Source of the DNA: Bacteroidota bacterium
GTDB taxonomy: Bacteria; Bacteroidota; Bacteroidia; 2-12-FULL-35-15
Length of the DNA stretch: 64,000 nucleotides
Assembly (NCBI GenBank): GCA_947449315.1
Contig: CANFRC010000002.1
Coordinates: 186,001 to 250,000, forward strand
Direction: 5' to 3'
The notes under the pieces are model-generated. The model was not told where the DNA came from and did no database searches. It was given only the letters and a program-made list of their open reading frames with translations. The first letter of the stretch is position 1. Every line of letters starts with the position of its first letter. A program made the position numbers and the translations under genes. This document shows positions 9,303-59,090 of the stretch, in pieces.

Positions 9303-11432
9303 CTATTGTTTTTGCGTTGTTTGTTTATTCACTTTAATATCTTTTCCTAAACGTTGTAGGTAGGAAATAACTGCAATAATTTCTCTATCGCTTAAGGTTT
9401 CAATTCCGTCTACTTTTAAATTTGCTGCAATTGAATCAGCTTGAATCATTAGCTCTTTGTTAGCAATTTTATCGTAACCAGCAGGATATGGAACTCCTAA
9501 CGTCATCATTGCTCTGATCTTACTTGGCGTTGTTGTTGTATCCAAAATGTTGTCCAACATTGCTGCATATGACGGCATGATAGAACCGGGAGAGATATTT
9601 TGTGGATCTAACATATGGTTGTAATGCCATGAGTCAGATTTTTTTCCGCTTTCACGCGCTAAGTCTGGACCAGTTCTTTTTGAACCCCATTGGAATGGAT
9701 GGTCATACACAAATTCTCCGGCTTTCGAATATTCTCCATAACGTTCTGTTTCAAAGCGAAGTGGTCTAACCATTTGTGAATGGCAGGTATAGCAACCTTC
9801 TCGAATATAAATGTCTCTCCCTTGTAATTCTAATGGTGTATAAGGTTTTACACTTTCAATTGTTGGAATATTTGATTTAATGAGGAAGGTTGGAACCATT
9901 TCAATTACTCCCCCTATTAAAATAACAACTAAACTAATAACCATTAATTGAATTGGTCTTCTTTCAATCCAACGATGCCAGTGTTCTCCAGGGTGTCCGC
10001 CTTCTGTATTTGCTAATGCAGGAGCTTCTGCTTCTTCATTTGCAAGGAATGAACCTGCTTTCACTGTTTTAATAATATTGTAGGTCATGATAATAAAACC
10101 AGTCAGATACATGGTTCCTCCTATGGAACGCATCATATACATGGGTCTTAATTGTGTTACCGTTAATAAGAAGTTCGGGTATTTTAAGAATCCTTCTGGT
10201 GTGAATTCCTGCCACATTAAATATTGTGTGAAACCGGCCCAATACATTGGAATAGCATAAAATAAGATCCCTAGCGATCCTAACCAGAAATGCCAGTTTG
10301 CTAATTTGATTGAGTATAAATTTGTGCGGAACATTTTTGGGATTAGCCAATATAGAATACCGAAGGTTAAGAAGCCGTTCCATCCCAGAGCACCAACGTG
10401 GACGTGAGCAATAATCCAATCCGTAAAGTGAGCAATTGAATTGACTTTTTTCAGAGAAAGCATGGGTCCTTCAAATGTTGCCATACCATAAGCTGTAATT
10501 GCAACCACCATAAATTTTAATACAACACTTTCTCTTACTTTATCCCATGCACCTCTCAGTGTTAATAATCCATTGATCATTCCACCCCAAGATGGAGCGA
10601 TTAGCATGACAGAAAAAGCAACGCCTAACGATTGAGCCCAATCTGGTAAAGCGGTATATAATAAGTGGTGAGGGCCAGCCCAGATGTAAAGAAAGATCAA
10701 CGCCCAAAAGTGGATAATAGATAAACGGTAAGAATAGACAGGGCGTTCAGCAGCTTTAGGGATGAAATAGTACATTAATCCTAGGTAGGGAGTAGTAAGA
10801 AAAAAGGCAACAGCATTATGCCCATACCACCATTGTACCAAAGCATCCTGAACACCTGCATACCAGGAGTAACTTTTCAAAAATGAAACAGGTAGTTCGA
10901 AAGAGTTGACGATATGTAATACAGCCACTGTTACAAATGTTGCTATGTAAAACCAGATAGCTACATATAAGTGGCGTTCTCTTCGCTTTAAAATTGTTCC
11001 GAACATATTCCATCCAAACACAACCCATATCAGGGCGATGGCTATGTCAATCGGCCATTCAAGTTCCGCATATTCTTTTCCTGTGGTAATACCAAGAGGT
11101 AATGTTAATGCAGCTGCAACAATAATTAATTGCCATCCCCAGAAATGGATCTTGCTTAATTTGTCGCTGAACATCCTTGCTTTACAAAGGCGTTGTAAAG
11201 AATAATAAACGCCCATAAAAATACCATTACCGACAAAAGCAAAGATCACCGCATTGGTGTGTAATGGTCTTAATCTTCCGAATGTAGTTTGAGGTATAAG
11301 GTTCAAGGAAGGGTATATCAATTCCAATGCTACCCATAAACCAACTAGCATACCAACTAGCCCCCATAAAATAGTTGCGAAGGCAAATTGTTTCACAATT
11401 TTATTGTCGTAAGAAAACTTTTCTAATTCCAT
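9303..11432 (-). CDS. ccoNO: cbb3 oxidase subunits I and II fused (CcoN-CcoO)
   Basis: A 709-aa fusion of the catalytic and the mono-heme subunits of the high-affinity cbb3 terminal oxidase. The first 470 residues or so are CcoN with about 12 helices; family blocks include LHTNAVIFAFVGNG, VQWWYGHNAVAFFL (CuB/high-spin heme histidines) and IAHVHVGALGWNG. A linker and helix lead to the CcoO cytochrome c domain with CYTCHSQMVRPLR near residue 545. The fused form is common in Bacteroidota. The enzyme reduces oxygen to water at low oxygen pressure and pumps protons. Confidence 0.97.
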   Translation of the reverse strand: MELEKFSYDNKIVKQFAFATILWGLVGMLVGLWVALELIYPSLNLIPQTTFGRLRPLHTNAVIFAFVGNGIFMGVYYSLQRLCKARMFSDKLSKIHFWGWQLIIVAAALTLPLGITTGKEYAELEWPIDIAIALIWVVFGWNMFGTILKRRERHLYVAIWFYIATFVTVAVLHIVNSFELPVSFLKSYSWYAGVQDALVQWWYGHNAVAFFLTTPYLGLMYYFIPKAAERPVYSYRLSIIHFWALIFLYIWAGPHHLLYTALPDWAQSLGVAFSVMLIAPSWGGMINGLLTLRGAWDKVRESVVLKFMVVAITAYGMATFEGPMLSLKKVNSIAHFTDWIIAHVHVGALGWNGFLTFGILYWLIPKMFRTNLYSIKLANWHFWLGSLGILFYAIPMYWAGFTQYLMWQEFTPEGFLKYPNFLLTVTQLRPMYMMRSIGGTMYLTGFIIMTYNIIKTVKAGSFLANEEAEAPALANTEGGHPGEHWHRWIERRPIQLMVISLVVILIGGVIEMVPTFLIKSNIPTIESVKPYTPLELQGRDIYIREGCYTCHSQMVRPLRFETERYGEYSKAGEFVYDHPFQWGSKRTGPDLARESGKKSDSWHYNHMLDPQNISPGSIMPSYAAMLDNILDTTTTPSKIRAMMTLGVPYPAGYDKIANKELMIQADSIAANLKVDGIETLSDREIIAVISYLQRLGKDIKVNKQTTQKQ

Positions 11433-11678: not shown

Positions 11679-11743
11679 CAAAATTAACTTTGGGTCCTCC
11701 ATCTGTTTATGATGCGCATCATTTTGAAATATGATTTAAATCA
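11679..11743 (-). promoter_or_regulatory. Promoter of the cbb3 operon with two Crp/Fnr-like sites
   Basis: Read on the minus strand: TGATTTAAATCA (11743-11732), 10 bp, TGATGCGCATCA (11721-11710), 23 bp, then TAATTTTG (11686-11679), a full match to the Bacteroidota -7 box TAnnTTTG. No TTTG is seen at -33, as expected for an activator-dependent promoter. Counting from a start near 11675, the palindromes are centred near -41 and -63. The same geometry recurs at 17022-17086, 18487-18552 and 49860-49924. Confidence 0.8.
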
Positions 11744-11922: not shown

Positions 11923-11990
11923 GCTAGCATTTTATAAATCTAAAATCATTCACTAACTTGGCAGCTCATAATATAAAAACATTTATAAAA

Positions 11991-13175
11991 ATGGATGGCA
12001 GTGAGGGATTAGATGCATTATTTAAACATGCTACTGAGGGAATATTGATTACAAATAATCAGGGCGAGATCGTAAAGATCAATCCAAGTGCAGAAAGCCT
12101 TTTTGGGTACGATTCAGGTGAATTAGTAGGGAAAGGCATTGAATTGTTGATTCCGTCACATTTGAAGGATAAACATGTTCATCATCGAGAATCCTATAAT
12201 AAAAGTCCTCGCCCTCGCTCAATGGGAAAAGGCTTTGATCTATTCGGTTTAAAGAAAAACGGTTCTGAAATTCCAGTAGAAATAAGTTTAAGTAATTATA
12301 CTTCAAAAAATGGAGTATATGTTATTGCTTTTATAATAGATATTACAGAACGTAAGATCGCGGAAGAGAAATTAAGGTCATATTCTACCGAACTTGAAAC
12401 GAAAGTAGAAGACAGAACATTGATGCTTCGCGAAGCTATTAATGAATTGGAAAAAACAAAGGAAGAGATCAACTCCGCTTTGGCAAAAGAAAAGGAGCTG
12501 AATGATTTAAAATCGCGATTTGTTTCTATGGCTTCTCATGAGTTCAGAACGCCTTTAAGTACAATCCTTTCTTCTGTTTCATTGATCTCTAAATATAATA
12601 CGTTAGAAACGGAAGAAAAAAGAGTGAAGCATATTAATAGAATAAAATCTTCTGTAGGTCATTTAACTGATCTTTTGAATGATTTTTTGTCGTTAGGTAA
12701 ACTGGAAGAAGGGATGATTCATAGCAATCCCGACCTCTTTGATATTGTGGATTTTTGTGACGAGATTATACAGGAAATGCAAGTGGTAGCTAAAGAAGGG
12801 CAAGTGGTATCCTATAATAATTTTGGAGAAAAAAATATCGTTAATCTGGATGTTAAGTTAGTAAGAAATATACTGATAAATTTATTGTCAAATGCGATTA
12901 AATTTTCGCCGGAAGACAAAGAGATACAATTACAAACTTTTGTTGGTGAAAAGGAAATTAAAATTACTGTGAAAGACTCCGGAATTGGAATAGCAAAAGA
13001 AGATCAATTGCATTTGTTCGAACGTTTTTTTCGTGGACAAAATGCTACCAACATACAAGGTACTGGCTTAGGATTAAACATCGTTACAAAATATGTTGAA
13101 TTGATGAATGGAACAATAAAATTTGAAACCGAATTAAATAAAGGGACTACGTTTATTATTAACCTTCCAATATAA
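11991..13175 (+). CDS. Soluble PAS-domain sensor histidine kinase
   Basis: A 394-aa kinase without membrane helices. A PAS domain (about residues 8-120) is followed by a coiled-coil linker (about 120-175), the HisKA block SMASHEFRTPLS with phospho-acceptor His near residue 183, and a HATPase domain (N box NLLSNAIKFS, G boxes DSGIGI and GTGLGLNI). I use the ATG at 11991; the frame also has an upstream TTG at 11958. The PAS domain has a histidine (near residue 62) in the place of the FixL heme ligand, but lacks the FixL distal arginine, so heme binding is uncertain. Stop and next start overlap (TAATG), so the receiver-Crp protein is its probable partner. The kinase half is paralogous to the protein at 56825, the PAS half to that at 55612. 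Confidence 0.92.
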   Translation: MDGSEGLDALFKHATEGILITNNQGEIVKINPSAESLFGYDSGELVGKGIELLIPSHLKDKHVHHRESYNKSPRPRSMGKGFDLFGLKKNGSEIPVEISLSNYTSKNGVYVIAFIIDITERKIAEEKLRSYSTELETKVEDRTLMLREAINELEKTKEEINSALAKEKELNDLKSRFVSMASHEFRTPLSTILSSVSLISKYNTLETEEKRVKHINRIKSSVGHLTDLLNDFLSLGKLEEGMIHSNPDLFDIVDFCDEIIQEMQVVAKEGQVVSYNNFGEKNIVNLDVKLVRNILINLLSNAIKFSPEDKEIQLQTFVGEKEIKITVKDSGIGIAKEDQLHLFERFFRGQNATNIQGTGLGLNIVTKYVELMNGTIKFETELNKGTTFIINLPI

Positions 13176-14233
13176 TGAAAACAATACTACTGATTGAGGA
13201 CAATGAAGAAATGCGTGAGAATACGACTGAGATTCTTGAGTTGGATAAGTACAATGTTCTGACCGCAAAAAATGGAAAATTAGGTGTGGAGTTGGCGCAA
13301 AACAATAAAATAGATCTCATAATTTGTGATGTGATGATGCCGGTTCTTGATGGCTATGGCGTCCTTCATTTGTTAAGTAAAAATCCCGAAACAGCAAGTA
13401 TTCCTTTTATTTTTCTTACAGCGAAAGCGGAACGAACTGATTTTAGAAAGGGAATGGAGATGGGTGCCGATGATTATATAACTAAACCTTTTGATGATAT
13501 TGAATTACTTAAAGCTGTTGCCAGCCGATTAAAGAAAAATGAAATATTGCGCTCGGAATTCTCAAAAAACATTGATGGTCTGAATAGTTTTTTTAGTGAA
13601 GTGAAGAACATTGAAGACCTTTCAAAGTTATCAGATGACAGAAAGGTTAAAACAATCAAAAAGAAGGAGCATATCTTTGCAGAAGGCAATTATCCGAACG
13701 GATTGTATTTTATTAATAAGGGCAAAGTAAAAACATTTAAGACCAACTCGGACGGAAAAGAATTTATTACTGGCTTATTTAAGGAGGGAGATTTTATAGG
13801 GTATACAGCTTTGCTTGAAGACGGAAAATATAACGAATCGGCGACAACGTTAGAAGATTCTGAGATCTGTTTAGTTCCAAAGGAAGATTTTTTTGAGCTT
13901 ATTTATAAAAATGCTGAAGTATCCAAGAAGTTTATAAAAATGCTTGCAGACAATTTGACTGAGAAAGAAAACGCATTATTGAAATTGGCTTACAATTCTG
14001 TTCGTAAAAGGATAGCTGAAGCGCTTATAGAATTAAAGAACAGATACCAAAAAGATGAAGCTAAAAAATTCAGCATGTCTGTTTTAAGAGAAGATCTTGC
14101 GAATATGGCAGGGACTACATCTGAATCAACCATTAGAACGTTAAGCGACTTCAAAGAAGAGAAGTTGATAGAGATCAACGGTGGTACGATTACCATTATC
14201 AATAGTGAGAAGCTTGAGAATATGAAAAATTAA
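13175..14233 (+). CDS. Response regulator with receiver domain fused to Crp/Fnr module
   Basis: A 352-aa protein. Residues 1-120 form a CheY-like receiver with phospho-acceptor Asp52 (IICDVMMP) and the LTAKAE and KPF blocks. Residues about 150-265 are a cyclic-nucleotide-binding-type beta barrel (IFAEGNYPNGLYFINKG). Residues about 270-350 are a Crp-type winged helix, with the predicted recognition helix TSESTIRTLSDF. That helix keeps the E-x3-R spacing by which Crp and FNR read TGA half-sites. The protein lacks the N-terminal cysteine cluster of FNR, so its input is probably phosphorylation by the kinase it overlaps. A close paralogue is at 58029. It is a strong candidate for the activator of the TGA-N6-TCA promoters. 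Confidence 0.92.
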   Translation: MKTILLIEDNEEMRENTTEILELDKYNVLTAKNGKLGVELAQNNKIDLIICDVMMPVLDGYGVLHLLSKNPETASIPFIFLTAKAERTDFRKGMEMGADDYITKPFDDIELLKAVASRLKKNEILRSEFSKNIDGLNSFFSEVKNIEDLSKLSDDRKVKTIKKKEHIFAEGNYPNGLYFINKGKVKTFKTNSDGKEFITGLFKEGDFIGYTALLEDGKYNESATTLEDSEICLVPKEDFFELIYKNAEVSKKFIKMLADNLTEKENALLKLAYNSVRKRIAEALIELKNRYQKDEAKKFSMSVLREDLANMAGTTSESTIRTLSDFKEEKLIEINGGTITIINSEKLENMKN

Positions 14234-14241
14234 AAAAAGGA

Positions 14242-16653
14242 TTACATTCCTTTTCTTTTTGCAGCGATTGTACTTGTTAATGTTGTGAATAAAACTATTG
14301 AAATGGAACTTATAGGCATTAAAATAGCCGCAATTACTGGTGACAATTTTCCATTGATCGCAAAACCTACTCCAACAATATTATAAAGCAGGGAAATTAT
14401 AAAGCTTCCTATAATAATTTTTTTTCCTGTTTTAGCAAAATCAATGAATTTTTTCAGCTTTATAAATTGTGTGCCATCTAAAATGGCATCACAAGCAGGT
14501 GAGAAGTTGTTGATGTCATCCGATACTGCAATACCAACATTGCTTTGTTTTAAAGCACCTGCATCATTTAATCCATCACCTATCATGGCTACCTTATTAT
14601 TCTTTGTTTGAAGATACCTTATGTATTCTAATTTGTTTGAGGGTGACTGATTGAATTTTAATTCTGAATGATCCGAGAAAATACGTTGGAGTTCATTTCT
14701 CTCTGAGTCATTGTCTCCGGATAAGAGAGCTAGCGTATTGTTCTTTTTTAATGCGACCACTAATTCTTTTAGCCCGGAACGATAATGGTTTTTTATAAGA
14801 AATCGCCCAATTACAATGTTATTGATCATTACATATACTTTGCTCGTTTTAGAATTCGTATCTACTTTTTTTTCATTAGATACAAATTCCTGCGATCCTA
14901 ATTTTATGAAATTGTTATTTATCAAAGCTTCTATTCCTTTACCAGGATATTCAGAAAATGAGGTGACAGGGGTTGATGTTGTCTGTGGTAAAAAAAGCTC
15001 TATTTTTTTGCTGAATGGATGCGACGATTCTGAAACCAAAGTGCGAATCAAAGTTTCTTCTTCATTCGTTAGTTCTTTCCCTTCATATAGGATACTTGAT
15101 TCATTATTGTGTGTGATTGTTCCTGTTTTATCAAAAACAATCGTGTCAATATTACCAAGTCTTTCTATCACATTTGCATTTTTTAGATAGAATTTATTTT
15201 TACCAAAGATTCGTAATATATTTCCGTTTGTGAATGTAGCCGATAGCAACAGAGCACATGGACAGGCAACAATTAGTACGGCTGTTAAAGCATTTAATGC
15301 ACGGTGAAAATCTGATTGCGCCCAGAACATAAAACCACCGGCTGCAAGCGCTAATAGAACAAAGGAGAAATATTTACTTACTGTATGAATAAAAGATTTT
15401 GTAGTATCCTCCTTTTGGCTGAATGCTTCATTGTTCCAAAGTTGCGTAAGATAGCTTTGCGAGATTTCTTTTATAACCTCCATTTCAATAGCGCTTCCAA
15501 TTTGTTTACCTCCCGCATAAATTATTTCCCCTATTACTTTTTCTTCTGGTAGCGATTCACCAGTAACAAAACTGTAATCAATATTTGCAATGCCTCTGAA
15601 TAAAATAGCATCAGTCGGTATCAATTCATTATTTCGGATGATGATTCTATCACCCACCTTTATATTTGAAACAGGAATTGCTGTTTCTTTTCCATCCTTT
15701 ATTAGAGTCACTGCTATTGGAAAATATGATTTGTAATCTCTCTCAAATGAAATTGTATCATAAGTGCGGTTTTGAAAGAATCTTCCTAATAGCATAAAAA
15801 AAACGATACCACTCATGGAATCCATATATCCTGAGCCAGTCCCGCTAATAATCTCGTAAATGCTTCTCGTAAATGTGATTAATATTGCCAATGCAATGGG
15901 CGCATCTATATTTAAAAATTTTTGTTTTAGCCCTTTCCATGCAGAAATGAAAAATTCATTAGCACTAAAAAAAAATACAGGAAGAGATAGCATTAAATTC
16001 AAATAGCTAAAAAAATGTTTTAGCCCTACTTCAGTAATTTTTCCAACAGCAAAATATTCCGGGAAACTCAACATCATAATATTCCCAAAGCAAAATCCTG
16101 CCACTCCAATTTTAAATAATTGTTTCCGGTTATATTTTGTTGGCTTTTTATCTTCTAAATCACTTAGATGAATATGTGGCCCGTAGCCTATAAATACAAG
16201 TAATTCAGCAACCTTTCGTAAGGTTGTTTCTTTTTCATTGTAGGAAATAGTCACTTGCTTTAAAGGGAAATTTACTTGTGATCTTTCAATAGCAGGGTTT
16301 ATTCGGTGTAGGTTTTCGAGCAACCATATGCATGAACTGCAATGCATTTGAGGTAAGTAAAACGTGATGTTCGTTTTTTTTCCATCAGTAAAAGAAATGA
16401 GTTTTTGTTTTACTTTTAAATCATCCAGATAGGAGTATTTTTCTGAAATAAATTTCCCCTTTACACTTATGCCTGGCGTTTTGGTAATGTCATAATATTT
16501 ACAGAGATCGTTCTCATTAAGAATTTCGTAAACTAATTTACAACCATCGCAACAAAATATTTTCTCATCGATGTGAATTGATTTTTTATTGCAATGTTCA
16601 CCGCAATGAAAACATGGTGTATCGGCAGTTTCTTTGTAAATGAATGATTTCAT
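14242..16653 (-). CDS. ccoI: Copper-translocating P-type ATPase of the CcoI/FixI type
   Basis: An 803-aa P1B ATPase. The N-terminus has a cysteine-rich metal-binding zone (CFHCGEHC, CCDGCK), followed by a heavy-metal-associated domain with MHCSSCIW. The membrane part contains the CPCALLLSA ion site (about residue 466), and the catalytic loop has DKTGT (about residue 508) and MIGDGLNDAGAL. In the CcoI/FixI group the pump delivers copper for assembly of cbb3 oxidase rather than for detoxification, which fits the neighbouring cco operon. It ends 8 bp from the convergent receiver-Crp gene and follows the 73-aa membrane protein gene. Confidence 0.93.
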   Translation of the reverse strand: MKSFIYKETADTPCFHCGEHCNKKSIHIDEKIFCCDGCKLVYEILNENDLCKYYDITKTPGISVKGKFISEKYSYLDDLKVKQKLISFTDGKKTNITFYLPQMHCSSCIWLLENLHRINPAIERSQVNFPLKQVTISYNEKETTLRKVAELLVFIGYGPHIHLSDLEDKKPTKYNRKQLFKIGVAGFCFGNIMMLSFPEYFAVGKITEVGLKHFFSYLNLMLSLPVFFFSANEFFISAWKGLKQKFLNIDAPIALAILITFTRSIYEIISGTGSGYMDSMSGIVFFMLLGRFFQNRTYDTISFERDYKSYFPIAVTLIKDGKETAIPVSNIKVGDRIIIRNNELIPTDAILFRGIANIDYSFVTGESLPEEKVIGEIIYAGGKQIGSAIEMEVIKEISQSYLTQLWNNEAFSQKEDTTKSFIHTVSKYFSFVLLALAAGGFMFWAQSDFHRALNALTAVLIVACPCALLLSATFTNGNILRIFGKNKFYLKNANVIERLGNIDTIVFDKTGTITHNNESSILYEGKELTNEEETLIRTLVSESSHPFSKKIELFLPQTTSTPVTSFSEYPGKGIEALINNNFIKLGSQEFVSNEKKVDTNSKTSKVYVMINNIVIGRFLIKNHYRSGLKELVVALKKNNTLALLSGDNDSERNELQRIFSDHSELKFNQSPSNKLEYIRYLQTKNNKVAMIGDGLNDAGALKQSNVGIAVSDDINNFSPACDAILDGTQFIKLKKFIDFAKTGKKIIIGSFIISLLYNIVGVGFAINGKLSPVIAAILMPISSISIVLFTTLTSTIAAKRKGM

Positions 16654-16764: not shown

Positions 16765-16986
16765 CTATTTGTTTGCATGGTGTCCTTTACCCTCAGTAAC
16801 AGCCATGATAAAAAATGTCAGAAATCCTATAATAGTCAGTAAAAAATAAAATGTGTATGTCATACGGCCAGAATCAACCATCGTATTTCCAACCTTAATT
16901 GGTAATGGGTACTCTAAAAATGCCCATCGGAATGGGAACAAAAATACTAACGTAATAATTGCAAGGGCGATAGCTTTCCTTTTCAT
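16765..16986 (-). CDS. Small two-helix membrane protein upstream of ccoI
   Basis: A 73-aa protein with two membrane helices (about residues 6-22 and 42-62) joined by a loop containing EYPLPIKVGNT and ending in a histidine-containing tail (GKGHHANK). I choose the ATG at 16986 rather than 17019 because the predicted transcription start near 17018 excludes the longer form. I do not recognise the family. It is the first gene after a promoter of the cbb3 type and precedes ccoI, so a role in oxidase or copper assembly is a reasonable guess. Confidence 0.65.
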   Translation of the reverse strand: MKRKAIALAIITLVFLFPFRWAFLEYPLPIKVGNTMVDSGRMTYTFYFLLTIIGFLTFFIMAVTEGKGHHANK

Positions 16987-17021: not shown

Positions 17022-17086
17022 CAAAAATAATTAGTCATGTTTTTATTGCATATGATTTACATCAGTATGAATAATGATTTAAATCA
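17022..17086 (-). promoter_or_regulatory. Promoter of the 73-aa protein-ccoI operon with two Crp/Fnr-like sites
   Basis: On the minus strand: TGATTTAAATCA (17086-17075), 10 bp, TGATGTAAATCA (17064-17053), 23 bp, TATTTTTG (17029-17022), a full TAnnTTTG match. The upstream palindrome is identical in sequence to the upstream one of the cbb3 promoter. The distal site overlaps the last codons of the gene at 17079-17468, so this is an internal promoter of the usp-to-ccoI run. Confidence 0.8.
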
Positions 17087-17478: not shown

Positions 17479-18300
17479 TTATTCGTGAATAGCTAATAGA
17501 GGAATGTGTGAATGAAATGCCATTTGTTTTGTATTGCTTTTGTGAAATAAGCTACCAATAAATGAATGTTTTCTAGGTAACATGATCAGAAGGTCGATTG
17601 AATGTTTATCAATAAATTCGTTAATGGCAAAAATGACATCGCTCTCTTCTGTAAAGTATAGCGTATGATCTAGGTCTTGAAGTATACGTTCTATATTAAG
17701 GCCTGAAAATGCTTCTTTATTGTTTGGTTTGGTGGAAGGATCAACAACGTTTATTACACTTAATTTTGCTTTAAAAAGTCCTACAATTGTTTTAAGCTGT
17801 TCAAATGTGCTGTTTTTCGTTTTTTCAAGATCACACGCAAAAGCAATATTCTGGATTGTTTTGAAATTTGAATTGTTAGGAATTGCAAGTGTTGGGCAAT
17901 CAATATTTTTCATCACTGCATTAGTATTGCTGCCGATTAATACCTGATTTAGTTTGCTTGTCCCAGTTATTCCCATCACAATCAGGTCTATGTTTTCTTC
18001 CTCTACAATGTCTTGTATTACATCCGTTACAAAACCTGGCCTAACAATGAACTTTATTTCATTCTCCTCTTTTACTTTTGCTCTTAATTTTAATTCGAAC
18101 GATTTCATTGATTCTATATTGTCTTTTTCCAATTCATCATAGGTAACAATTATTACCGGTGTCTCACTTGGAACAATAGGTATATGGAATGCATGAAAAA
18201 GGATTGCTTTAGCATTTAATTGTTTTGCTAGCTTTATAGCATAACATGCTGCATTCATTGACGTGTCTGAATAATCAGTAGGAATTAATATTTTTTTCAT
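17479..18300 (-). CDS. Universal stress protein, tandem UspA domains
   Basis: A 273-aa protein with two UspA folds in tandem. The first starts MKKILIPTDYSDTSMNAACYA and has the nucleotide-binding MGITGTSKLNQVLIGSNTNAVM loop near residues 130-152. The second (about 150-273) is more degenerate and ends with FHSHIPLLAIHE after a shortened loop. Such proteins bind ATP or AMP and help cells survive respiratory and redox stress. The gene is preceded by a paired-palindrome promoter about 190-250 bp upstream and is followed by the 129-aa unknown gene. Confidence 0.92.
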   Translation of the reverse strand: MKKILIPTDYSDTSMNAACYAIKLAKQLNAKAILFHAFHIPIVPSETPVIIVTYDELEKDNIESMKSFELKLRAKVKEENEIKFIVRPGFVTDVIQDIVEEENIDLIVMGITGTSKLNQVLIGSNTNAVMKNIDCPTLAIPNNSNFKTIQNIAFACDLEKTKNSTFEQLKTIVGLFKAKLSVINVVDPSTKPNNKEAFSGLNIERILQDLDHTLYFTEESDVIFAINEFIDKHSIDLLIMLPRKHSFIGSLFHKSNTKQMAFHSHIPLLAIHE

Positions 18301-18486: not shown

Positions 18487-18552
18487 TAAAATTATACCTA
18501 TCTTTTTTTCTTTCGTATGATTTAGGTCAATGATAATTTATGATTTAGGTCA
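18487..18552 (-). promoter_or_regulatory. Promoter of usp with two identical Crp/Fnr-like sites
   Basis: On the minus strand: TGACCTAAATCA (18552-18541), 11 bp, TGACCTAAATCA (18529-18518), 23 bp, TAATTTTA (18494-18487), which misses TAnnTTTG by one base. The two sites lie in an exact 14-bp direct repeat with a 23-bp period. In the plus direction no -7 box occurs at the matching distance, so the sites point to usp and not to HU. The leader to the usp ATG would be about 180 nt. The rest of the 515-bp gap holds AT-rich sequence and the HU promoter. Confidence 0.72.
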
Positions 18553-19398: not shown

Positions 19399-19471
19399 GA
19401 TTCCGTAGCTCAGCTGGTAGAGCATTACACTTTTAATGTAGGGGTCCTGGGTTCGAATCCCAGCGGGATCA
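19399..19471 (+). tRNA. tRNA-Lys (anticodon TTT)
   Basis: A 73-nt cloverleaf. The acceptor stem GATTCCG pairs with CGGGATC (one G-T pair), the D arm is GCTCAGCTGGTAGAGC, the anticodon arm is TTACA-CTTTTAA-TGTAG with anticodon TTT, and the T arm is CTGGGTTCGAATCCCAG. The discriminator base is A and CCA is not encoded. Confidence 0.97.
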
Positions 19472-39760: not shown

Positions 39761-40123
39761 GGGGTCGTACGGTATTGACAGCGTTGCGATTTTTTTGTAA
39801 GCATGTCGTGTGTTGTGAATATGGCACGTAAATCCTAATTCTCAAAATTCTATCTGGCGAGTCTAACTTGTCTATGGCTGCTTAATACCAAGTATTAAGT
39901 GCCGTTGTTTCCGGAGAAGCTTTGATCTTCAGCGTTTCCTGTGAAGCATTACAAATGAAGAAATAGTTGCGGAGCGCTTTGATCCGTGGCGAGATACAGA
40001 AGCTAAGTATATTTTGTGGCCTGCAGGTTTGCCTGAAATATATCGAAAATTAAATATCTGATACACATGTAGAAAGCATCTTAATACGATGTTTGGACGA
40101 GAGTTCGAATCTCTCCGACTCCA
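39761..40123 (+). ncRNA. ssrA: tmRNA (transfer-messenger RNA)
   Basis: The 5' end GGGGTCG pairs with CGACTCC at 40116-40122 (one G-T pair), giving a 7-bp acceptor stem; the discriminator A is at 40123 and CCA is not encoded. The T arm GAGAGTTCGAATCTCTC is complete. The tag reading frame begins at GGC 39856 and ends at TAA 39883-39885, giving the peptide GESNLSMAA. The tag ending MAA is a variant of the usual ALAA. Together with SmpB this RNA rescues stalled ribosomes. Confidence 0.93.
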
Positions 40124-40127
40124 CTCG

Positions 40128-49859: not shown

Positions 49860-49924
49860 TGATTCAAATCACGCATGTTTTTGACTCAAGTCATTATTAA
49901 CCAGATGCCCCTGTAATAGCTTTG
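49860..49924 (+). promoter_or_regulatory. Promoter of the SprB-repeat protein with two Crp/Fnr-like sites
   Basis: TGATTCAAATCA (49860-49871), 10 bp, TGACTCAAGTCA (49882-49893), 23 bp, TAGCTTTG (49917-49924), a full TAnnTTTG match. All spacings equal those of the cbb3 promoter on the other strand. With a start near 49928 the sites are centred near -41 and -63. The leader to the ATG at 49962 is about 34 nt. The rest of the 251-bp gap has nothing else obvious. Confidence 0.8.
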
Positions 49925-49961
49925 TTCCGTAAATATTAGTATTAACTTAAACTAAACGAAA

Positions 49962-52900
49962 ATGAAAAAGATTACAGTCATCGCGATGGCCTTCTTTCTG
50001 GGCCTTATGGGATTGGAAGCGCAAACGACTTCATGCGTAGACATGAACGCTTACGTCAACTCAAAAAATACAGGAGGTACGGGTTCATACACCCTTAATA
50101 ATGGTTATGAAGAAAAAGCTGCTCAAACGTATCACTATTCCGGACCAGGAAAAGTAAGTCAAGTGAAAGTGTTTGGAAATTACTCAGATTTTGGCGGTGT
50201 ACCACTTCGTATATCAGTTTACAATGTTGATGCTGCTGGAAGACCAACTTCCACTTTATCGTATGTAGATGATATTTTTTGGAGCGGAGCAAGTTCTATT
50301 ACTGTAAGTCTTCCAGGTGGAGGAACAGCAGTTAGTGCAAATTTCGCAATTGGAATTGCTATTAGAAATGTATGGCCTTGGGGTAATACCTTTCAGTTGC
50401 AATACACAGGAAATGGCGAAGGTTTAGGTGCTGATCTTGCATCATTAGCTGGTACTTCTACCGGTGGAAATTGGGCAAGTGCTATGACAAGTTTCAGTAA
50501 GGATGGAGATTTTTATCTTGTTCCAAAGATGACAAACTACATTACTTCTGATTTCACAGCAAGTACACAATGTGCTGCTACTTCAGCATTGATTTCTTTC
50601 ACTAACTCATCTGCAATGTCAAAAGATGGTATGTTCAATAAAATTGGATTGCCAGGATATGCAGGAGCTAATTATTTTTACACTTGGAATTTTGGTGATG
50701 CAACTCCGGTTTCTCACTTAACTAGTCCAACACACACATACGCCGCTGCAGGTTCTTATACCGTTTCATTAACTTCTACATTAGAAGGATGGGGTGGAAC
50801 ATGTACTATCGTAAAATCTATGGTTATTTCTGTTGGACTAAGTGTTAGTTCTTCTGCAATTACAAATGTTTCTTGTAATGGTGGAAATAATGGAAGTGTT
50901 ACTGCTGTTAGTAATGGTGGTACGTCTCCTTTTACTTATAGTTTAACTGGAACAACGTATCAAGCATCTGCTACTTTTGGTAGTTTGATTGCTGGTAATT
51001 ATACATTATATATTAAAGATGCAGTAGGTTGTACAAATACAACAACTTTTACGATCACTCAACCAATTGCTATTACATTTAATACAGCTTCATCCTCTGC
51101 AGCATCATGTGGAAATAGTGATGGATCTATTTTAGTTGCAGCTACTGGTGGAACAGGTGCTATCCAATATCAGTTAAATGCTGGAACTTTCCAAAGCAGC
51201 GGATCTTTTACAGGTCTTTCTTCTGGTTCTTATACCTTAACTGCAAAAGATGGTAACGGTTGTACTAAAGCGACTACTGTAATTGTTAATAATTTAGGAG
51301 CTCCGATCTTAACAGTTTCTAGCACAACAAACGTAAGTTGTCACGGAGGAAATGATGGTACTATTATTTTATCTGCAACAGGTGGAGTAGGAACTCACCT
51401 TTTCAGTATCAATGGTGGTGCTACTTTTCAAACGAGTGGTTCTTTCACAGGATTACCAGCAGGAACATATCCTGTATTAGTTAAAGATGCTTCAGGTTGT
51501 ACGCAAGGTGTAACTTTGATTATCTCTGAACCATCATTAGTTGTTTTCACTGCTTCAACAATTGCTACATCTTGTCATGGAGCAAGTGATGGACAGATCA
51601 ATGTGACTTCTGCTATTGGTGGAATAGGAACATTATCATACAGTGTAAATGGTACAAGCTACCAATCAAGTACAAACTTTTCAGGGTTACCTTCAGGAAC
51701 TTATACTGTTTATGTAAAAGATGCTGCTTCATGTGTGGCTACATCAACTGTAGTTATTAATCAACCGGTTGGTGTTGTGGCTACATTTGCAACAACTGCT
51801 GTTGGTTGTAATGGTTCTGACAACGGTTCAATAATCGTATCCGCAACTGGAGGAACTCTTCCTTACTCATATTCAATTGATGAAAATGATCCTCAACCAA
51901 CGGATGCATTTTATGATTTAACTGCTGGTACGTATACTATCACTATCACAGATGCTCACGGTTGTTCTTATTCATCAAACGTTACAATTACGCAACCGAG
52001 CGCTATTACTGCTACATCTACAATTACAAATTCAACTTGTACTTTTAGTAATGGTGGAATTTTAGTTGTTGCTGCTGGTGGTTCTGGATCAGGATACCAA
52101 TACAGTATCGATGGAGGAGTAACTTTCAATGCTACAGGTTCATTCTCATCTTTACCTGCAGGTACATATTATATTGTTGTTAAAGATGGTACTGGATGTC
52201 AAACTGTTATTTCTTCAATTGTTTTTGACTCAAACGGTCCAGTAATTTCATCCTCAAGTCATACCAACGTAGGTTGTCATGGCGGATCTGATGGAAGTAT
52301 TACAATTAATACTGTAACAGGTGGAACAGGTGCTTTATCTTATAGTGTGAATGCTCTATTATGGCAACCAACAACAACTTTTACAGGTCTTACTGCTGGT
52401 GTTTATACAGTATATGTAAAAGATATCAATGGTTGTATCGGTACAGTTACTGTTACAATAACTGAACCTGCTTCTTTTGTTATCACTAAAACAATTGTAA
52501 ACGCAACTTGTAATGCAAGTAACACAGGATCTGTATCAATTTTTGCTGCAGGTGGTGCTGGAACTTTAGCTTACAGTATCGATAACGGTGTTACATACCA
52601 ATCAAGTAATACATTTACAAACTTATATGCTGGTCCGTATAAAGTAATTGTACGTGATATCGCAGGATGTACAGGTTATATCTTATTTGATATTAATGAG
52701 CCTACTGCAATTACTTTCTTTACAGGTGTATTAAATGTAACTTGTCATGGAAATAATAATGGAGCTATAACTGTTTTTGCTGCTGGCGGAACAGGTACAC
52801 TTCAATACAGTTTAACTGGTGGAACCTACCAATCTTCCAATCTTTTCACAGGATTAGCTGGTGGTACTTACATGGTTTATGTTAACGATGCAAATGGTTG

Positions 52901-53698: not shown

Positions 53699-53803
53699 AA
53701 AATAATAGTGCAATTAATTGTTGGTAGTGACCTCTGTCATTTCTTATATCTTATTTGATTGAGAACTTTGTACCATCTTTTACTTACTTATAATCTTTAA
53801 TAT

Positions 53804-53902
53804 ATGAAAATTCTCAGTTATATTTTCCCTGTTTTTATCGCATTTTTACTAACTGCCACAATCATCTTTATTTCTTATGTTGCTTTCTGTGCAAAGGTAT
53901 AG
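53804..53902 (+). CDS. Possible 32-aa membrane peptide
   Basis: An ATG at 53804 opens a 32-codon frame of almost pure hydrophobic residues (KILSYIFPVFIAFLLTATI and on), enough for one membrane helix, and ends at TAG 53900-53902. The gap 53699-54097 has no other candidate gene. Small membrane peptides of this kind occur in bacteria, but AT-rich sequence can also produce such frames by chance. No promoter or start signal supports it strongly. Confidence 0.25.
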   Translation: MKILSYIFPVFIAFLLTATIIFISYVAFCAKV

Positions 53903-54050
53903 TCGCCAATAGGGTTCATATTTGCGGTCATTATCAATCTTTATTTCTTTAGTTCAAAATAATTTTGTCAGAGATTATTATTAAGTTAACTGTTCATATT
54001 TATTGCTAAAAATGGTATTCCATTTGAGTGAGAAGAATCAATCATTGTAA

Positions 54051-54068
54051 TGAGAATTGTCATTCTCA
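54051..54068 (+). promoter_or_regulatory. Operator-like palindrome before the Crp/Fnr gene
   Basis: TGAGAATTGTCATTCTCA is a 7-bp inverted repeat with a 4-bp centre. It contains a TGA-N6-TCA core at its left side and covers an ATTG (54056-54059) that is 18 bp before TATTTTG (54078-54084). It could be an operator for autoregulation, or a Fur/PerR-like site. It is 30 bp before the ATG. Confidence 0.5.
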
Positions 54069-54097
54069 ATTCTATTCTATTTTGTTTCCTTTGAAAG

Positions 54098-54787
54098 ATG
54101 AAAGAGGATGTTTTGTTTGAATACGAAAATTTTAACTCTATAGAAGGGAAGGTTAAACGTGCCATTCAAAATTTTCTTCCTATAGAAGAATTTGAATTGA
54201 TTTCTGTAAAAAGTAAAGAAGTTATTTTTCAAAAAGGAAGTTCACCTGAAGGATTATATCTGATCTCTTCAGGAAAGATTAAGATTAGTACCAATGGATG
54301 TGATAACAGAGAACATATTACTAGGATTGCTGTTCAAGCCGAATCTTTTGGTTATGAGAGTCTGTTAAATAAGTCCAAACACATTGTTACCGCTGTAGCA
54401 ATAACAGACGCAAAGGTTGCTATTGTTCCCAAAAAAATATTTTATTATTTGCTAGAAAGTAATTTAGAATTTTCCAAAACATTTGCCGAGATTTTGAGTT
54501 TGGATGGAGCATTTAAAGATCTTAAATTCCATGACATTCTCTATAAACCTATTAGAGGTAGGTTGGCTGATGCTTTACTTCTTTTGGAACGTAAATTCAT
54601 TCTAGATGGTAATGGTAAAATTGTCATCTCAAGAAGTGATCTTGCCAGTTATGTTGGAAGTGTTAGAGAAACAGTTTCAAGATTGATATCTGAATTTAAA
54701 GAAGATAAAATGATTGAAACCGAGGATGATTTCTTAAAAATAATAAACAGGGATAAACTCATATCAGTAAGTAACCTATACAGATAG
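54098..54787 (+). CDS. Crp/Fnr-family transcription regulator
   Basis: A 229-aa regulator. A cNMP-type barrel (about residues 35-150; VIFQKGSSPEGLYLISSGK) is followed by a C-terminal winged helix (about 155-229). The recognition helix VRETVSRLISEF reproduces the E-x2-S-R pattern of FNR, which reads TTGAT half-sites. It has just one cysteine, so it cannot bind an FNR-type 4Fe-4S cluster. It is paralogous to the Crp parts of the receiver fusions at 13175 and 58029. It converges with the DUF6629 gene (12-bp overlap). Confidence 0.9.
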   Translation: MKEDVLFEYENFNSIEGKVKRAIQNFLPIEEFELISVKSKEVIFQKGSSPEGLYLISSGKIKISTNGCDNREHITRIAVQAESFGYESLLNKSKHIVTAVAITDAKVAIVPKKIFYYLLESNLEFSKTFAEILSLDGAFKDLKFHDILYKPIRGRLADALLLLERKFILDGNGKIVISRSDLASYVGSVRETVSRLISEFKEDKMIETEDDFLKIINRDKLISVSNLYR

Positions 54788-55441: not shown

Positions 55442-55611
55442 TGGAATAGAATATAGATTTAGTAAAAACTCTTTTAGCAATGTTACATTTGTTTTTATAC
55501 CCAGATGATGATAATCCTCATTTGAGACTATGATATTTATCATCTATTAATAAAAATGTTAGTTCTAATTTCGATGTTGAAAATAAAAGTATTAATTGTA
55601 GTTTTTTCGAA

Positions 55612-56766
55612 ATGGATCGATTTTTAGTAAATGATATTTATAGTCCTTTAAGCCGTGAATCTGTTTTTGAATGTTCAGCAGAAGGGATTGTTGTGGTGGA
55701 TGATTCAGGTGCGATTGTTAAGGTTAACAATTCAGCAAATGGCATGTTTTCTTATGATTCGGGCGAGCTGCTAGGAAAAAAAATCGAAGATTTAATACCT
55801 ACTCGCTTTTTGTCAAATCACAGAAGTTTGCGTGAAGAATATAAAAATTCTCTTCATCCACGAACTATTGGTGTTGGCAAAGATTTATTTGCCAAGAGAA
55901 AGGATGGTTCAGAATTTCCGGTTGAAATTAGCTTAAGTCCAATCCAAAATTCAAGCGGATTTCAATTTGTGATGGCATATATTATCGATATATCCCTTCG
56001 TAAAAGAAAAGATGAAGAATTGGTTAAAGCACATAATGACTTGTTAAATTATTCAGAAGCCCTTAAAAAATCAAATGCTGAATTGGAGAATTTTGCGAAT
56101 ATCGCATCACACGATCTTCAGGAACCATTAAGGAAGATAATTTCTTTCGGTGAAAGGCTTCAAATTAGTGAAATGCAAAACCTTTCGGAAGGAGGGAAAA
56201 ATTATTTAATACGCATGCAGAGCGCTGCTGCTAGGATGCAGGAGCTAATTGGTAGTCTGCTACATTTTTCGAGATTATCTTCAGAAAATGAAAAATTTCA
56301 GCCAGTTAATCTTACTAATACATTATTCAAAGTATTGGATGATTTGGAAGTTGCAATTGAGAATTCAAAAGCGCAATTTGAAATTGATGAACTGCCGGTT
56401 ATTGACGGATCCTCTTATCAGATAGCGCAACTTTTTCAAAATCTGATCGGTAATGCAATTAAATTTAGAAAAAAGGATGTTTCGCCACTTATTAAAATAT
56501 CGTGTCAGAAAAAAATGGGGCTAACTGTATTTGAAGAAATGGTTGAGATTCAAATAGAGGATAACGGGATTGGTTTTAATGAAAAACATTCAGATAAGAT
56601 ATTTGATCTTTTTCAGCAAATTGAAGGAAAGAAGTATGGAGGAAGTGGTATTGGACTTGCTACATGTAAAAAAATTACTTTGAAGCATGGTGGTGATATT
56701 GTTGTTAAAAGTGAGGAAGGTAAAGGTTCCAGTTTTTTCATTACTTTAAAAACAAAACATCATTGA
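55612..56766 (+). CDS. Soluble PAS-domain histidine kinase (second copy)
   Basis: A 384-aa cytoplasmic kinase. The PAS domain (about residues 15-128) has the same layout as that at 11991, with a His at residue 70 in the FixL ligand place and Lys at the place of the FixL arginine. The dimerisation domain has NIASHDLQEPLRK with phospho-acceptor His167, the HisKA type found in FixL- and phytochrome-related kinases, and a complete HATPase domain (NLIGNAIKF, DNGIGF, GSGIGLATCKK). It precedes the receiver-kinase and receiver-Crp genes, so a phosphorelay is likely. Confidence 0.92.
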   Translation: MDRFLVNDIYSPLSRESVFECSAEGIVVVDDSGAIVKVNNSANGMFSYDSGELLGKKIEDLIPTRFLSNHRSLREEYKNSLHPRTIGVGKDLFAKRKDGSEFPVEISLSPIQNSSGFQFVMAYIIDISLRKRKDEELVKAHNDLLNYSEALKKSNAELENFANIASHDLQEPLRKIISFGERLQISEMQNLSEGGKNYLIRMQSAAARMQELIGSLLHFSRLSSENEKFQPVNLTNTLFKVLDDLEVAIENSKAQFEIDELPVIDGSSYQIAQLFQNLIGNAIKFRKKDVSPLIKISCQKKMGLTVFEEMVEIQIEDNGIGFNEKHSDKIFDLFQQIEGKKYGGSGIGLATCKKITLKHGGDIVVKSEEGKGSSFFITLKTKHH

Positions 56767-56824: not shown

Positions 56825-58054
56825 ATGTTTAAGGAAATTAAAGTGTTGATGATTGATGATGATAAGGATGATTTTATTCTTATCCGTGAGATGTTAGCAG
56901 AAATCAAATATCATACATATACCATTAATTGGATTGATAATTATCAAGAAGGATTGGCAATGGTAATCAGCAATGAGTATGATGTTTATCTAGTGGATTA
57001 TAACTTGGGAGTGAATTCAGGTTTAGATTTAGTTCTTGAAGCGAATCGGTTGGGCTGTGTTTCGCCCTTTATTATTCATACTGGGCAAAATGATATTGGT
57101 ATAGATGCTAAAGTTATGGCTGCTGGTGCTGTAGATTTTTTAGTAAAAGGTGCTTTTTCAGCAGCCGTTTTAGATCGGTCACTTCGATATGCTTTTTCTA
57201 ATTTTCGCCAGTTGAAGGAAATTATAAGACTTAATGCAGATCTTGAGAAACGTGTAAGTGACCGAACTATTATATTGGAGGAAGCGATTAAGGAGTTGAA
57301 TATTGCGAAAGATGAAGTGGCAGTATCCTTGAAAAAAGAGAAAGAATTAAGCGAATTAAAGTCGCGATTTGTATCGATGGCTTCGCATGAATTTAGAACT
57401 CCGCTAGCAACAATATTATCCTCACTATCACTGATTGAATCATATTCTGCAAATAATAATAGGGAAATGCAGGCAAAGCATGTGGTTCGAATTAAAAGAA
57501 CAATTATGAATTTAACAGATATTCTGAATGATGTTTTGTCAATATCTAAATTAGAAGATGGAGGGTTTGTTTCTTGTATCGAGAATATCAATGTTAAATT
57601 ACTTTTATCAGATATTGTAAAAGATTTCAGTCAGATTTTAAAGAAAGGTCAATCCATCGTTCATAATCACAGTGGGAGCGATGTAAGTGTTACAGATAAG
57701 AAGTTTTTGCGTCAGATAATCGTTAATTTAATATCGAATGCTGTGAAATTCTCTCTAGAAGAGGGAATTGTAGAATTAAGTTCTTATATTTCTACTTCTA
57801 GAATCGAAATAAGAATAAAAGATCATGGAATAGGAATTTCAAAAGAGGATAAGATACATTTATTTGAACCTTTTTTTCGAGGATCCAATGCAACGAATAT
57901 TGAAGGTACAGGTCTCGGACTCAGTATTGTTTTAAAATATGTTGAAATGTTGAATGGATCTATAGAATTTGAAAGTGAACTTGATAAAGGAACTCAATTT
58001 AGTATTAATCTACCAAATCATTTAAATTATGAACAAGAAAATATTATTAATTGA
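56825..58054 (+). CDS. Hybrid receiver-histidine kinase
   Basis: A 409-aa protein with the domains in reverse of the usual hybrid kinase: an N-terminal receiver (about residues 1-125, phospho-acceptor Asp58 in LVDYNLG), a coiled-coil linker, HisKA (SMASHEFRTPLATIL, His near residue 196) and a HATPase domain (DHGIGI, GTGLGLSIV). The kinase half is a close paralogue of that at 11991. A receiver at the N-terminus means it can itself be controlled by phosphorylation from the PAS kinase 58 bp upstream. It overlaps the next gene by 26 bp. Confidence 0.92.
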   Translation: MFKEIKVLMIDDDKDDFILIREMLAEIKYHTYTINWIDNYQEGLAMVISNEYDVYLVDYNLGVNSGLDLVLEANRLGCVSPFIIHTGQNDIGIDAKVMAAGAVDFLVKGAFSAAVLDRSLRYAFSNFRQLKEIIRLNADLEKRVSDRTIILEEAIKELNIAKDEVAVSLKKEKELSELKSRFVSMASHEFRTPLATILSSLSLIESYSANNNREMQAKHVVRIKRTIMNLTDILNDVLSISKLEDGGFVSCIENINVKLLLSDIVKDFSQILKKGQSIVHNHSGSDVSVTDKKFLRQIIVNLISNAVKFSLEEGIVELSSYISTSRIEIRIKDHGIGISKEDKIHLFEPFFRGSNATNIEGTGLGLSIVLKYVEMLNGSIEFESELDKGTQFSINLPNHLNYEQENIIN

Positions 58055-59090
58055 AGACAACCTAGAGATGCGAGAAAACATTTCTGAAATTCTTGAACTT
58101 TCTAAGTATGATGTTGTATCTGCTAAAAATGGTAAAGAAGGAGTAGAATATGCTGAAAAAAGCAACCCCGATTTAATAATATGTGACATTATGATGCCCG
58201 TGCTTGATGGCTATGGCGTTTTACATATGTTATCAAAAAATGAGGATACTGCAAATATTCCATTTATTTTTCTAACAGCAAAAGCTGAGCGAAGCGACTT
58301 CCGAAAAGGTATGGAGATGGGGGCGGATGATTATATTACGAAACCTTTTGAAAAGTTAGACTTGCTAAAAGCTATTGAAAGCCGTTTGAAAAAGTCGGAG
58401 AGCATGAAAAATAATTTTTCTAAAAATATAGAGGGGTTGAACGAATTTTTGGAAAACGCAAAAAGTTTTGATGATATTCGTAAGCTTTCTGAAGAAAAGG
58501 AATTAAGAATGTATAAAAAGAAAGAGTCGGTCTATCTAGAAGGAAATCAATCCAAAGGTATTTATTTCGTGAATAAAGGAAAGGTGAAAACATACCATGC
58601 GAATGATGATGGAAAGGAATTTATAACAGGCCTATACAAAGAAGGCGATTTTTTTGGTTATCTGACTTTACTTGAGGAGAATAAGTACGTAGATTCAGCA
58701 ATGACTTTAGATGATTCTGAATTATACCTATTGCCCAAGGAAGATTTCTTTTCTCTTGTTTATAAAAATGCTGAAGTCTCTCGTAAATTTATTAATATGC
58801 TCGCCGATAATCTGAAAGAAAAAGAACTACAGTTGATAAAACTTGCTTACAATTCTGTTCGAAAACGTGTTGCCGAAGCATTAGTGACTTTGTCGAGCCG
58901 ATATAAAAAAGACAATAATACTCCTTTTAGTATGAATATTTCCAGAGAGGATCTTTCGAATATTTCTGGTACTGCAAAAGAGAGTGCTATCAGGTCCTTA
59001 AGCGAGTTTAAAGATGACGGTCTTATTGAAATAAATAATGGAACCATAACGATTCTTCAATTTGATAAACTTTCTAACTTAAGAAATTGA
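58029..59090 (+). CDS. Response regulator with receiver domain fused to Crp/Fnr module (second copy)
   Basis: A 353-aa protein with the same plan as that at 13175: receiver (about residues 1-120, Asp53 in IICDIMMP), cNMP-type barrel (about 150-268; VYLEGNQSKGIYFVNKGKVK) and Crp-type DNA-binding domain with recognition helix AKESAIRSLSEF. The E-x3-R spacing is retained. It starts 26 bp inside the receiver-kinase gene, so the two are tightly coupled. Pairing between the two islands could cross-talk. Confidence 0.92.
   Translation: MNKKILLIEDNLEMRENISEILELSKYDVVSAKNGKEGVEYAEKSNPDLIICDIMMPVLDGYGVLHMLSKNEDTANIPFIFLTAKAERSDFRKGMEMGADDYITKPFEKLDLLKAIESRLKKSESMKNNFSKNIEGLNEFLENAKSFDDIRKLSEEKELRMYKKKESVYLEGNQSKGIYFVNKGKVKTYHANDDGKEFITGLYKEGDFFGYLTLLEENKYVDSAMTLDDSELYLLPKEDFFSLVYKNAEVSRKFINMLADNLKEKELQLIKLAYNSVRKRVAEALVTLSSRYKKDNNTPFSMNISREDLSNISGTAKESAIRSLSEFKDDGLIEINNGTITILQFDKLSNLRN

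Follow-up and report, generated by a model that had tools for sequence, protein, structure and literature searches.

At 49962 in the 64,000-nucleotide stretch of DNA that we analysed (the window) begins a gene for a secreted adhesin, and some 38 kb away, on the opposite strand, lies a cbb3 oxidase operon that opens with ccoS (Table 1). The promoter of the adhesin gene, at 49860-49924, reads TGATTCAAATCA-N10-TGACTCAAGTCA-N23-TAGCTTTG, with the ATG 37 nt past TAGCTTTG; that of the cbb3 operon, on the minus strand from 11743 to 11679, reads TGATTTAAATCA-N10-TGATGCGCATCA-N23-TAATTTTG, and ccoS begins 22 nt past its -7 box. The initial annotation had described two palindromes and a 23-bp spacer with equal distances at both genes, and the sequence bears this out, the spacings being identical; it had also given the two promoters one common box, but TAGCTTTG occurs at the adhesin only, and the cbb3 box TAATTTTG differs from it in the middle bases. 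Both boxes fit TAnnTTTG. No RNA-family element was found near the adhesin, and the matches in the window, a tmRNA and a tRNA gene, lie elsewhere.

Table 1. Features of the window, in order of position.
Feature	Position	Strand	Remarks
Fused ccoN-ccoO, cbb3 oxidase	9303-11432	-	behind ccoS in the operon
ccoS, 61 aa	11471-11656	-	first gene of the cbb3 operon; TIGR00847
cbb3 -7 box TAATTTTG	11679-11686	-	
cbb3 downstream operator TGATGCGCATCA	11710-11721	-	
cbb3 upstream operator TGATTTAAATCA	11732-11743	-	
PAS histidine kinase, FixL/DosP-like PAS	11958-13175	+	divergent from the cbb3 operon
Receiver-Crp fusion	13175-14233	+	next to the cbb3 operon
Heavy-metal P-type ATPase	14242-16653		downstream of the 73-aa protein gene
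73-aa membrane protein	16765-16986	-	under a tandem element; upstream of the P-type ATPase
Tandem element TGATTTAAATCA-N10-TGATGTAAATCA-N23-TATTTTTG	17022-17086	-	
Universal stress protein	17479-18300		downstream of the 18487-18552 element
Tandem element with 11-bp gap, TGACCTAAATCA twice, N23, TAATTTTA	18487-18552	-	
tRNA gene	19399-19471	+	
tmRNA	39761-40126	+	
Adhesin upstream operator TGATTCAAATCA	49860-49871	+	predicted centre -63.5
Adhesin downstream operator TGACTCAAGTCA	49882-49893	+	predicted centre -41.5 (class II)
Adhesin -7 box TAGCTTTG	49917-49924	+	Bacteroidota sigma-A type, TAnnTTTG
Secreted adhesin, 1226 aa	49962-53642	+	PKD domain, 9 SprB repeats, T9SS type A sorting domain
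Tandem element TGAGAAGAATCA-N10-TGAGAATTGTCA-N23-TTCCTTTG	54029-54093	+	4 nt before the Crp-family gene
Stand-alone Crp-family regulator	54098-54787	+	
Tandem element TGATAATCCTCA-N10-TGATATTTATCA-N23-TAATTTCG	55509-55573	+	before the kinase operon
PAS histidine kinase, FixL/DosP-like PAS	55612-56766	+	heme-ligand His aligned
Receiver-histidine kinase hybrid	56825-58054	+	
Receiver-Crp fusion	58029-59090	+	about 4.4 kb downstream of the adhesin end

When TAnnTTTG is placed where it was mapped in F. psychrophilum, at -12 to -5 (PMC9723704), transcription of the adhesin gene is predicted to start near 49929 and the operators are predicted to be centred at -41.5 and -63.5. The operators, which carry the TGA-N6-TCA core of Crp/Fnr-type sites, stand 22 bp apart centre to centre, i.e., two helical turns. 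The position -41.5 is that of a class II activator, and among Crp/Fnr-type promoters the predicted architecture forms a sharply delimited variant. Averaged over 132 elements, the two operators are not alike: the upstream one resembles TGATAATAATCA and the downstream one TGAY....VTCAT, with weaker inner bases in the latter. An ordinary E. coli-type sigma-70 promoter at the adhesin locus was rejected, matches to it being no more than in shuffled sequences.

Since isolated TGAN6TCA sites are frequent, with about 50 in the window, one could suppose that AT-rich palindromes resemble the element by chance. However, pattern searches of the 2.61-Mb genome recovered six tandem pairs with a 10-bp gap, against none for the reversed pattern, and four full elements (pair plus box), against none in the control. 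The spacings were examined in 423 kb of adhesin-linked DNA, comprising the window and 22 adhesin-ortholog loci, that had not been selected by the pattern: among pairs with gaps of 0-40 bp, 29 of 34 had a gap of exactly 10 bp, and the distance from pair to TAnnTTTG was 23 bp in 20 of 24. The element is not there by chance; with zero matches in the reversed controls, and zero in shuffles at the scores observed for real upstream regions, we rejected chance palindromes, an explanation whose probability we consider negligible.

Five of the six 10-bp-gap pairs lie inside the window, preceding ccoS, the gene for a 73-aa membrane protein, the adhesin, a Crp-family gene and a PAS-kinase operon. The earlier two-gene picture holds in that the adhesin and cbb3 do share the arrangement, but the arrangement is not limited to them, three further pairs occurring at 17053, 54029 and 55509. 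The sixth exact pair is on contig C9, and the element there (G000:C9:7066-7130), the only full one in the genome outside the window's contig, precedes the gene for a 131-aa protein that also stands under the element in relatives. A seventh pair, at 18518 and with an 11-bp gap, precedes a universal stress protein gene; its two operators are identical and may show a tolerance in spacing. Every one of the seven pairs has TAnnTTTG, or a version with one mismatch, 23 bp on.

Several of these neighbouring sites have features of their own. A family search gave no match for the 73-aa membrane protein, homologs of which stand under the same element in other genomes, and the heavy-metal P-type ATPase downstream of it is probably ccoI. 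The operators before the Crp-family gene (TGAGAA.../TGAGAA...) do not conform to the common TGAY half site. The transcription start predicted for this gene coincides with its ATG, which suggests that it is leaderless and perhaps self-regulated. Between the adhesin and the Crp gene, within 53728-53899, a single operator TGACCTCTGTCA followed by N23 and GAACTTTG precedes a 32-aa membrane ORF (at about 53804).

The element is widespread among relatives, 39 of 59 of which carry it complete, with up to 15 copies per genome, while the reversed pattern found nothing in any of the 59. A phylum-wide search with a slightly narrower pattern was positive in 15 of 198 genomes, with a single one of these outside the window's own class. 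In a census of the genes downstream of 119 elements, ccoS was the commonest target (19 cases; the element precedes it in about 18 genomes), followed by genes for DoxX-like proteins (9), universal stress proteins (7), Hsp20 (4), hemerythrin-like proteins (4), the 73-aa protein (4), FixL-like PAS kinases (3), cytochromes and others; DUF892 genes also occur under the element. Apart from ccoS, the PAS kinases and the universal stress proteins, these names were assigned by reading the sequences, and because the census takes in loci fetched for the adhesin, its adhesin count is inflated whereas its ccoS count is unaffected. In several genomes (G010:C7:1686244, G009:C5:19148, G028:C49:1931, G023:C765:1237 and G002:C27:132756), two of which lack the receiver-Crp fusion, a single tandem element is shared by another Crp gene and the gene that diverges from it.

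Conservation before the adhesin gene itself was assessed in 22 orthologs from MAGs labelled Bacteroidetes, Bacteroidia, Flavobacteriia or Flavobacteriales, whose upstream regions were scored over the 18 constrained bases, with 1,320 dinucleotide shuffles as the control. Sixteen of the 22 scored at least 16 and 20 scored at least 14, whereas none of the shuffles exceeded 14 and 1.6% reached it; the element was missing from two upstream regions and partial in four. The spacers between the constrained bases have wholly diverged among these orthologs, which, together with the retention of the operators, is as expected under selection on the operators. In one ortholog (G014) the 5' coding region is broken and the element is kept with one mismatch.

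Given a strict promoter before most adhesin orthologs and before ccoS, within a block of stress genes of low-oxygen type, the sequence comparisons support well the view that the adhesin and the cbb3 oxidase are under shared control, as had been proposed at the outset; the accompanying suggestion of a gliding-type protein is not supported. The protein has a signal peptide (predicted by inspection), nine stretches of SprB repeats (PF13573) and a C-terminal sorting domain of type A (PF18962/TIGR04183); no type B domain was found in it, and no PorP/SprF-like gene is apparent among its neighbours. Because the genome encodes SprA (C4:117063) and GldH, export of the adhesin, a protein with a T9SS sorting domain, by a type IX system is plausible. 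Although SprA and GldH are present, the sorting domain does not support a SprB-type gliding adhesin, being of type A and not of the type B expected with SprF.

The gene order around the adhesin raises the question of whether it merely inherited a neighbouring promoter, oxygen being irrelevant to its function. Element-bearing genes often surround the adhesin; the block in relatives includes genes for universal stress proteins, Hsp20 and a BON-like protein, DUF892-like and PHB-type genes (names that come from inspection unless a family search was made), as well as PAS kinases and the fusion regulator. But the element stands directly before the adhesin, is conserved there despite the diverged spacers, and persists where the gene order differs. 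It also recurs in a second adhesin family: an operon in G016 (L090:9808-19359) encodes a 2178-aa type B adhesin, a PorP/SprF and an OmpA-like protein behind an exact tandem element, and the element is present again in G021; a relative in G002, 57% identical, matches it at 16 of 18 bases. The scores of these three (18, 18 and 16) set them apart from more distant paralogs, which score 9-13, and we regard passive inheritance as quite improbable. Putative control by the element belongs to certain adhesins and does not extend to adhesins at large. A generic adhesin promoter was itself rejected: the six pairs genome-wide compare with 11 adhesin-like matches, other SprB-repeat proteins of this genome have no element, and the distant paralogs of the second family also contradict it.

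As for the protein that reads the operators, the window encodes two receiver-Crp fusions, each of which combines Response_reg, cNMP_binding and HTH_Crp_2 domains in one polypeptide. The receiver keeps the phospho-acceptor Asp (in a CDxxMP motif). The Glu and Arg by which Crp/Fnr-family proteins contact the TGA core are retained in the recognition helix. The element is present in 35 of 42 genomes with a full-length fusion and in 4 of 17 without one (Fisher p = 2.4e-5 over 59 genomes, a value that ignores shared ancestry), and several ortholog loci have the fusion gene no more than about 10 kb from the adhesin. The fusion at 13175-14233, next to the cbb3 operon, is the most likely binder of the tandem operators. 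The discordant genomes, i.e., the four with an element but no full fusion and the seven with a fusion but no exact element, imply that another Crp-family protein can probably read the element.

It could be a stand-alone Crp/Fnr-type protein, such as that at 54098-54787, that reads the operators, with the fusions acting elsewhere or higher in a cascade, an alternative that we consider unlikely but give real weight. This Crp gene, 0.5 kb beyond the adhesin, is preceded by a tandem element of its own, its recognition helix (RETVSR) is canonical for the family, one genome (G037) has the ccoS tandem element but no full fusion, and the sharing of an element by the other Crp gene and its divergent neighbour in several relatives points the same way. 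Against it stand the co-occurrence of element and fusion across genomes, the deviant TGAGAA operators at 54029 and, by inspection, the lack of an evident Fnr-type Cys cluster or cAMP-contact Arg in the 54098 protein. We retain as the likeliest regulator, judged by co-occurrence, a receiver-Crp fusion with a heme-PAS-like kinase as its partner.

It is because of the companion genes and the heme-PAS-like kinases that we infer a link to oxygen. The PAS domains of both window kinases match the structures of FixL and DosP, and a proximal heme-ligand His aligns with that of DosP in one comparison and with that of FixL in the other. The distal Arg of FixL is absent, with Phe and Lys at the aligned positions (DosP is also without it), which leaves heme binding and the ligand uncertain; oxygen sensing by these kinases is nonetheless likely. 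The signal could instead be nitric oxide, redox state or general stress, with cbb3 as one target only, and such a reading would draw on the universal stress protein, Hsp20 and DUF892 genes that share the promoter and on a distal heme-pocket residue unlike that of FixL. We hold it to be improbable in that ccoS is the commonest target, kinases of the FixL/DosP type are encoded both beside and under the promoter, and oxygen limitation strongly induces cbb3 in F. psychrophilum (PMC9723704).

The mechanism we favor, to which we assign a probability of about 0.7, is low-oxygen activation of the adhesin through the receiver-Crp fusion; within it, we infer the identity of the binder, the oxygen signal, the direction of activation and the role in attachment. 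The element would act as a sigma-A promoter that depends on an activator and carries two Crp/Fnr-type operators, at about -41.5 and -63.5. The activator would be one or both of the fusions, phosphorylated by a PAS kinase resembling the heme oxygen sensors FixL and DosP, and would join FixJ-like input to FixK-like output in a single polypeptide. As oxygen falls, two dimers would occupy the adjacent operators, and the downstream dimer would contact RNA polymerase in the manner of a class II activator. The adhesin would be transcribed along with the cbb3 oxidase, the universal stress proteins and the other genes of the low-oxygen set. After export through the type IX system it would be displayed on the surface, where it could promote attachment or aggregation; the model predicts that cells are sticky when oxygen is low. 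A FixLJ-FixK-like pathway whose FixJ and FixK parts are joined in one protein appears to be the simplest reading of these genes. We lean, with some caution, toward the broader proposition that Bacteroidia possess a dedicated class of low-oxygen promoters (two adjacent Crp-type operators fixed at -63.5/-41.5, read by a one-protein FixJ-FixK-like regulator) whose conserved regulon includes type IX adhesins, so that a fall in oxygen would lead directly to attachment.

The N10/N23 arrangement offers a precise, searchable signature for a predicted low-oxygen regulon in Bacteroidia, and it ties a T9SS surface adhesin to that regulon in a manner conserved across many species. The literature we searched held no description of an Fnr-type promoter of this form in Bacteroidia and no paper linking a T9SS adhesin to low oxygen, which is weak evidence of absence given that subscription journals lay mostly outside the search.

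The closest analogues are the FixLJ-FixK system and the Burkholderia lxa locus. With the rhizobial FixL-FixJ-FixK cascade the present system shares a heme-PAS-like kinase, a receiver, a Crp-family output, which here is predicted to control cbb3, and the TGA-N6-TCA core; it differs in that one protein unites the receiver with the Crp output, the operators form pairs with a constant 22-bp spacing before a Bacteroidota sigma-A promoter, and an adhesin belongs to the predicted regulon. Class II/class III promoters of E. coli for Crp and Fnr have an activator at -41.5 and a second dimer upstream, as is predicted for the present promoter, but here the two sites are adjacent (22 bp) and the promoter is of the TAnnTTTG type. 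The remFG-sprCDBF locus of F. psychrophilum likewise encodes a SprB-repeat surface adhesin exported by the T9SS, but its SprB is a gliding adhesin with SprF and is driven by sigma-54 and SM5 promoters with no Crp-type tandem (PMC9723704). The DosR dormancy regulon of Mycobacterium tuberculosis is a hypoxia regulon rich in universal stress proteins (PMC6127331), as is proposed for the genes considered here, although its regulator is from another family. The low-oxygen-activated (lxa) locus of Burkholderia cenocepacia resembles the adhesin block in its universal stress proteins, linked BON-domain protein and FixK-like regulator, but it belongs to a different phylum and is without a T9SS adhesin; its deletion reduced attachment to epithelial cells 12-fold (PMC6127331). 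Through the adhesin, environmental Bacteroidia might have a direct molecular means of attaching or aggregating in hypoxic niches, which would parallel the attachment role of the Burkholderia locus.
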